A program made the position numbers and the translations under genes. Shown piece by piece: positions 36,258-38,338 of a stretch of DNA of 64,000 nucleotides. The notes beneath the pieces were generated by a model. That model saw only the letters and a program-made list of their open reading frames with translations. It made no database searches and was not told the origin of the DNA. How positions within the stretch are numbered: the stretch's first letter is position 1; every line of letters starts with the position of its first letter. Origin of the DNA: an uncultured Flavobacteriales bacterium (GTDB lineage Bacteria > Bacteroidota > Bacteroidia > Flavobacteriales_G > Salibacteraceae); NCBI GenBank assembly GCA_905479105.1, contig CAJQLE010000002.1, positions 124,001 to 188,000 of the forward strand. Direction: 5' to 3'.

Positions 36258-36288
36258 AAGCCCATTTCGATTGAAATAGGCTTTTTTT
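36258..36288 (+). terminator. Terminator after the dienelactone hydrolase lipoprotein
   Basis: Stem AAGCC-C-ATTTC/GAAAT-A-GGCTT with a 4-base loop followed by seven T. It starts 23 bases past the stop codon. The T run merges into the folD-like repeat at 36286. Confidence 0.88.
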
Positions 36289-36310
36289 AATCTCTTTTTC
36301 GAGCAGCGAT
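36286..36310 (-). repeat. Detached copy of the folD 3' end (distal direct repeat)
   Basis: 25 bases matching 38314-38338 at 23 positions, in the same orientation. On the minus strand it still reads IAARKRD-stop, the exact C-terminus of FolD; the two differences (AAA for AAG, AGA for AGG) are synonymous. No folD likeness continues on either side. Together with the copy at the true folD end it brackets the two interrupted T9SS genes. Confidence 0.8.
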
Positions 36311-36382
36311 GGATTTTTCCTTGCGGTTGACCTTAAGCAGAATGATTCCAAAAGATCGAGTAAAAATTAGAGAAATATATTC

Positions 36383-37216
36383 TTACCGGCTGATGACAAT
36401 GGGTTCATGAACAGTATATTGAGCACCAATAATGCTAAGAATATATACCCCAGAATTCATTGATTGAGTGTTCAAGTAATTAATTCCATCAGCTAATTGA
36501 AACCGTTCGATCAATTCGCCAGACAATGTCCTTAAGTAAGCATCCGTTTCAGAAATTTTGCTGGAAATCTCAATAGTTCATAAATCAGCTGTAGGGTTAG
36601 GGAATATTTTAATGCCTTTGTTGTCATCACCAATTTCTGATACGTTCAAATAACTTATTTTATCAGAAAAGGTCGCTTGAAGTGGGAAGTGTTCACCTGG
36701 ACCTCCACCCTCAAAGAAAGGGTCTAAAAAAACAGAATCAACTTCCTTTATATTCAGGGTCTCAGCTACAAATACATTGAAGTAATTGTTTTCTACCCAA
36801 ACACTCTTAAATTCAAAAGGTAGATTGTGATTATTTAATAAGTTAGTATCCCAACGCATTGTTATAGGTAATTCACCATTTCGGGATTTAATATAAATCG
36901 AGTAAGAGTTGATAACTCGCAATGGAAAACATAGAGTTTTTAGAACACTGTCGTTCATATTTGTTAAAACCCATGTTTGAAATTTTGTGCTATCTAATAT
37001 CTCATTTGTCTCGCCTAGTGTTGAATCCAAAAATTCCTCAGTTGCATTAGTGTCAATAACTATCCATACTGTATCTCTTTGATTGGTCGCATCCTCAAAA
37101 GCAAGATAAAACTTGAATTGGGGTTCAACCTGTGCTTGAGATACAAAAGATGATAAGAGCAATGCTATTGAGAAAAACCAATGGAGACTATCTCTTAATG
37201 AATGGATGGATTTCAT
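36383..37216 (-). pseudogene. T9SS cargo protein, interrupted by an in-frame TGA inside its sorting domain (paralog 2)
   Basis: A signal peptide (SIALLLSSFVSQAQ) leads into a domain of about 160 residues (EPQFKFYLAFEDA, MRWDTNLL, LDPFFEGGGPGEHFPL) shared with the gene just upstream. The type A sorting domain begins IKIFPNPTADL and is cut by TGA at 36578-36580. The same frame then runs 64 more codons with a convincing continuation (TIEISSKISETDAYLRTLSG, MNSGVYILSIIG, ending IVISR) to TAA at 36383. The truncated product is 212 residues; the intact one would be 277. The main domain's function is not recognised. Either a recent nonsense mutation or a base-call error. Confidence 0.82.
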
Positions 37217-38003
37217 GAGTACCAGAATCTGAATTAATAATGAGGTAGTAATTTCCAGACGGATGATGACTGACGTCTATGGTGGTTGATAATTGACTTA
37301 TTGAACCTTCGTTTACCCTTTGACCAAAGGAATTTAAAATGTAATACTCTGTCAAAAGGGGGCGATTAGCCTCGATTTTTAACTCATTTAAAATAGGATT
37401 ACCCTGAATTATAAAGTTGTCTGATGAATGAACTTGTTGTATACCAATCCAATTAAGTGGGATCTCAGAAAATTTAAAAGTTAACGGAAAGTGCTATCCC
37501 GTGCCACCTCCTTCCATAAAAGGATCAAGATTTACAGAACCATCTTCAAAGAAATCTAACGGCCCTGCAATAAATTCATTAAAGTAATTACTCTGAGCCC
37601 AAGCACGTCTTATTTCAATCGGAAGATCATTGCTCAGTAATAAATTGGTATCCCATCTCATTACGATTGGCAACTCGAATTTTGATGCCGAAATGAAGGC
37701 ACTCCATTCAGGTTCATCGGTCCCACTGACAATCGTTTTAGAGACAACAGTATCATTTGTCCAATAAAAGACTTGAAATGAAGTCGTATCGAAAACAGTA
37801 TTTGTGTCTCCGAAAATTGAATCAATTTGCATTAAATCAGCCGATTCATCAATACCATACCACACAGTATCTTTTTCATTCTTCGCATCCTCAAACGCAA
37901 GATAAAACTTGAATTGGGGTTCAATCTGTGCGAATGAAATATGACTTATGTGTACGAGAACACCTGTAACCAAAAAGAAAAATATGCGCTTTATTTTGTT
38001 CAT
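37188..38003 (-). pseudogene. T9SS cargo protein, interrupted by an in-frame TAG just before its sorting domain (paralog 1)
   Basis: A signal peptide (IFFFLVTGVLVHISHISFAQ) precedes the same domain as in the neighbour (EPQFKFYLAFEDA, MRWDTNLL, LDPFMEGGGTG). TAG at 37494-37496 stands exactly where the paralog has GAG (Glu): GGGTG-stop-HFPL against GGGPGEHFPL. The frame continues 101 codons (IIQGNPILNELKIEA, ILNSFGQRVN, HPSGNYYLIINS, ending FIKR) to a TAG at 37188, overlapping the next gene's ATG (37216) by 29 bases. The intact protein would be 271 residues; the truncated one has 169 and lacks any sorting domain. It is the first gene of the pair. Confidence 0.82.
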
Positions 38004-38313
38004 GTAAACTTGGTATCGGTCTCGCTCTAATCCTCACTTCATTCACCCACATTTGGCAAGTTAGCGACTAAATCTACCCTCAACTTCTTCCAAGTTTAAG
38101 CAAACTTGCGCGAACAATAAAAAGTTAAATAACAGAAGTTTGAGTAATTAAGGCCTCACCTATTAGGTCACATAAAGAAATCTCAGCTAACACAACCAAA
38201 GCATGGATGGTAGATGCTGGTGCAATATGCAATCCTTTTTTGCTTTAAACTTCTGCTTGACTTGAAAGAAAACACTCTATTAAAACTATGTTTTCTTAAC
38301 TAAAAAGACATTA
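38004..38313. other. 310-base intergenic region between the interrupted T9SS pair and folD
   Basis: No gene is visible on either strand. It contains a 9-base inverted repeat AAGAAAACA/TGTTTTCTT with a 14-base loop (38266-38297), a possible weak terminator 17 bases after folD, and a small palindrome AAGTTT-AAGC-AAACTT (about 38090-38106). No promoter box for the first paralog could be assigned with confidence. Confidence 0.5.
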
Positions 38314-38338
38314 TTTAATCCCTCTTTCGAGCAGCGAT
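38314..38338 (-). repeat. folD 3' end (proximal direct repeat)
   Basis: The last codons and stop of folD, matched by 36286-36310 at 23 of 25 bases in the same orientation. Marks the right boundary of the 2.0-kb block holding the interrupted T9SS paralogs. Confidence 0.8.

Follow-up and report, generated by a model that had tools for sequence, protein, structure and literature searches.

Two tandem T9SS type-A cargo genes interrupted by in-frame stop codons in an accessory block of a Flavobacteriales genome: probable early nonsense decay

In the window analysed here, a 64-kb stretch of the genome of an uncultured Flavobacteriales bacterium, two tandem paralogous genes (g1 and g2) each encode a T9SS cargo whose sorting domain is severed from the rest of the protein by a single in-frame stop codon, raising the question of why two neighbouring genes should both be interrupted in this manner. 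The initial annotation, which had proposed this arrangement, was borne out in its main lines: both stops and both tails were located as claimed, neither gene carries a frameshift, and the g1 frame, when read through its stop, runs over the ATG of g2 (37216-37214, minus strand), overlapping the g2 start by 29 nt. The 101 codons that stay open after the g1 TAG indeed read as a sorting domain, scoring above the cut-offs of both PF18962 (27 bits) and TIGR04183 (23 bits), and the g2 TGA cuts its sorting domain, with 64 codons continuing in frame (Table 1). Only when the two genes are read past their stops does the domain exceed the curated PF18962 cut-off, and neither translated product holds it whole. 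The two genes also share the motifs MRWDTNLL and EGGG, as had been described, and both start, as judged by eye, with a signal-peptide-like segment (i.e., a basic start, a hydrophobic run and an AQ end).

Table 1. Coordinates of g1, g2 and the block that carries them, in positions of the window
Feature	Position	Strand	Details
37-nt direct repeat, left copy	38302..38338	-	folD 3' end, encoding IAARKRD and the stop, plus the next bases
g1 as translated (putative signal peptide and most of cargo domain, 169 aa)	37494..38003	-	Ends at TAG 37496-37494 (codon 170)
g1 frame after the stop, 101 codons (final conserved stretch of the cargo, HFPLTFKF..., and T9SS type-A sorting domain)	37191..37493	-	PF18962 30.2 bits, TIGR04183 25.5 bits; open until TAG 37190-37188
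g2 as translated (putative signal peptide, cargo domain and start of sorting domain, 212 aa)	36578..37216	-	Ends at TGA 36580-36578 (codon 213)
g2 in-frame continuation, 64 codons of sorting domain	36386..36577	-	PF18962 32.3 bits across TGA, TIGR04183 22.3 bits after TGA; ends at TAA 36385-36383
37-nt direct repeat, right copy	36274..36310	-	Second folD 3' end, then terminator and dlh arrangement as in G011
2,028-bp block (insert and one repeat copy)	36274..38301		Missing in G011

Two finer points had to be amended. Opposite the g1 TAG, g2 has GAA and not GAG as first reported, and Glu is not conserved at this position, where the other six family members have E/E/D/Y/N/T. Moreover, the g1 stop does not remove only the export tag: a conserved FPL/FPI segment, which precedes the sorting domain and closes the cargo part in 7/7 family members, lies 3' of the TAG and is lost with it, such that only the g2 TGA falls inside the sorting domain proper. 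g1 and g2 resemble T9SS type-A cargos (PF18962 / TIGR04183) in having a cargo domain and a C-terminal sorting domain in frame, after a signal-peptide-like start, yet differ from them in that a stop cuts this domain off (g1) or cuts within it (g2), and in a cargo domain that matched no Pfam or NCBIfam family. This domain had no significant relative in a PDB profile search, and an AlphaFold2 model of g2, built on a 3-sequence alignment, reached a pLDDT of 38. A search upstream of g1 and g2 for a Bacteroidota-type promoter element (TAnnTTTG) found none. A terminator-like match over the g1 TAG (37502-37484) was set aside, its 6-pair stem probably being due to chance.

Of the 42 genomes of the order that were searched, just four contain full-length homologues, namely the source genome (G000, two copies), G004 (two), G012 (one) and G018 (two and a fragment); the first three were the only carriers of full-length copies among 13 congeners, and G018 is a further one in the family. 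Weaker partial matches were present in G036, G038 and G040. The full-length copies in G004 and G018 are intact, and g1 and g2 carry lesions relative to intact homologues, which would be expected to inactivate them. The G012 copy (on public contig CALKOP010000046.1, from an uncultured Flavobacteriales MAG) has a TAA within its sorting domain. When the relatives were compared at both stop positions, a check that the initial annotation had called for, the stops proved not to be common to them: the three stops of the family (TAG in g1, TGA in g2 and, as a third codon at a third position, TAA in G012) occupy different alignment positions, at which other members have sense codons or gaps, and are each followed by a different base. 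The cargo part of the G012 copy has a dN/dS of about 0.13 against the G004 copy G004a, which mostly reflects the time before the stop, and the g1-g2 comparison is saturated at synonymous sites and says nothing about the tails. In the tandem paralogues of G004 (L022 5560-7285), the sorting domains are nearly identical (dS of about 0.23) and the cargo domains divergent (dS saturated), a pattern that suggests recent gene conversion of the tails.

As to its surroundings, the pair sits between folD and a dienelactone-hydrolase gene (dlh), both named by inspection of their translations, and is bracketed by two copies of a 37-nt direct repeat that are 84% identical and spaced 2,028 bp apart (local score of 44, versus at most 25 among 300 shuffles). 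In the closest relative by FolD (G011, 97% identity), 55 bp separate the folD stop from the 3' end of dlh, and there is no cargo gene. With its repeat, the block looks like the trace of an insertion at the 3' terminus of folD, a deletion in the relative being a less likely alternative. No recombinase gene was found within the ~2 kb block, and searches of plasmid, phage and viral collections returned no homologue. The two G004 family copies lie at an unrelated locus (C5:63.5-65.3 kb, with the folD of that genome at C5:729.6 kb).

g1 and g2 are not the only interrupted cargo genes in their genome. Among its 98 type-A sorting tails, at least four more belong to interrupted genes (C3:97424, C4:669339, C3:303533 and C1:335561), a count that is a lower bound because upstream sequence was inspected only for tails with short open frames. 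The C3:97424 cargo (L040, G000:C3:97417-99451, minus strand) is repeat-rich and carries five in-frame stops (TAA, TAG, TGA, TAA and TAG) spread over 678 codons with no frameshift seen; this gene was not found at length in congeners. The C4:669339 cargo (L104, G000:C4:667300-669900) is interrupted once, by an in-frame TAG in the middle of the cargo (HTETMGG, stop, FGLEIHTMAY), that at C3:303533 has one TAG and a doubtful N-terminus, and that at C1:335561 is disordered. Nearly all of the interrupted cargos inspected in the source genome are nonsense-only. By comparison, stops were seen in 0/37 type-B sorting domains and in 1/30 ABC domains, the difference between type A (6/98) and type B (0/37) being not significant (Fisher p 0.19). 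At least seven interrupted cargos are present in G012, on contigs C46, C49, C168, C179, C195, C180 and C203 (L021, L117, L119, L118, L041, L120 and L122). Many T9SS cargo genes of that genome have in-frame stops after which the frame is intact, and frameshift-type lesions seem fewer there.

The initial annotation had held that two tail-proximal stops in neighbouring paralogues are unlikely by neutral decay alone. To gauge this, we weighted each codon by the single substitutions that turn it into a stop, counting transitions twice, and found that a random nonsense change falls after the cargo core with a chance of 0.40 in g1, 0.29 in g2 and 0.34 in the G012 copy. The joint chance is 0.12 for g1 and g2, and about 0.04 for all three, and with other type-A cargos of the genome also interrupted, the argument from improbability does not hold for the pair. 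Nor need the two stops be independent events, as had been assumed, given that g1 lies directly upstream of the overlapping g2. Still, stops occur in 3/7 full-length family members, all near or in the tail; at a 5% background, the probability of 3 or more of 7 is 0.004, a figure noticed post hoc, in which g1 and g2 cannot count as independent cases. The family is left with a weak, unexplained excess of tail stops.

Could the stops instead be artefacts, i.e., errors of assembly or base calling, or a mixed-strain consensus? Assembly errors are known to show up as internal stops (PMC11017572). However, two separate substitutions, each creating a stop, would be needed in a genome rated 99.85% complete, the ORF layout reveals no other interrupted gene in the rest of the window, and the near absence of stops from the type-B and ABC domains argues against pervasive error; we consider this explanation improbable. 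Read-through, whereby a fraction of ribosomes passes the two stops and yields a minority of exported full-length cargo, is less probable still, and we regard it as very unlikely. Bacterial genes often carry in-frame stops with the frame maintained beyond them, which has been taken as a case for read-through (Belinky et al. 2021, PMC7918605); in that work, the criterion is that purifying selection persists while the stop is there. g1 and g2 resemble those genes in having an open frame with a recognisable sorting domain beyond the stop, and several cargos of the source genome are likewise nonsense-only. Yet in programmed read-through the stop and its context are conserved in relatives, whereas the stops here use different codons at different positions, are followed by different bases, and none is common to the relatives. 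Read-through is further weakened, and a genome-wide recoding was rejected, as no suppressor tRNA is present among the 35 tRNA genes found and all three stop codons end ordinary genes (TAA, TAG and TGA terminate 95, 50 and 39 of 184 long genes, respectively).

Another explanation is that loss of surface export was itself selected, truncation having been advantageous in g1 and g2 and, as a separate event, in G012, and with the cargo domains retaining a periplasmic function. In all three genes, the stop leaves most of the cargo domain in place, and the domain is otherwise intact; 3/7 family members are truncated. Against this, the g1 stop takes a conserved cargo segment with it, intact copies with tails persist in G004 and G018, unrelated cargos have stops within their cargo part, and the chance placement calculated above is adequate to account for the pair. 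Selected loss of export is not needed, and we deem it improbable. We attach similarly little weight to the broader proposal that nonsense codons repeatedly switch off the sorting tail (in g1, g2 and G012) while the cargo is kept, turning a surface protein into a periplasmic one or leaving low-level export by read-through.

We therefore favour early nonsense decay: g1 and g2 are probably early-stage pseudogenes, tandem small T9SS type-A cargo genes carried on a ~2 kb accessory block. This reading rests on the stops themselves, the in-frame tails that follow them, the repeat-flanked block, which the nearest relative lacks, and the like lesions in other cargos of this genome and of a congener. 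It places the pair with bacterial nonsense pseudogenes: each gene has a single in-frame stop, the genes are patchy in distribution and taken to be dispensable, and the same lesions occur in other cargos and in G012; unlike in such pseudogenes, frameshifts are almost absent among the cargos inspected here. That g1 and g2 have only one lesion each, and no frameshift, likewise counts against decay. The dN/dS of the G012 cargo part points the same way, with the limitation given above.

In this decay scenario, the cargos would be dispensable, allowing stops to become fixed. One stop, most simply that of the upstream g1, could then lower the expression of the overlapping g2 through lost translational coupling and Rho polarity. 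Some 280 nt between the g1 stop and the g2 start go untranslated, a gap that would be expected to loosen coupling and leave the transcript open to Rho. With its expression lowered in this way, g2 would in turn come under relaxed selection as well. The truncated products are predicted to be exported by Sec without a complete sorting domain, and should remain in the periplasm, where they would probably be degraded; in P. gingivalis, secretion is impaired when the sorting domain is ablated or carries point mutations (PMC11285876).

Taken together, g1 and g2 are best read as a tidy example of ordinary gene decay and not of a new mechanism, and the block at the folD 3' end illustrates clearly how cargo genes turn over in these bacteria. 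More generally, an in-frame stop in a T9SS cargo gene need be nothing unusual: several percent of type-A cargos are interrupted in the source genome, and likewise in a congener. Should the tail stops prove, on the other hand, to be under selection or subject to read-through, a nonsense codon would amount to a simple switch of protein location between the surface and the periplasm.
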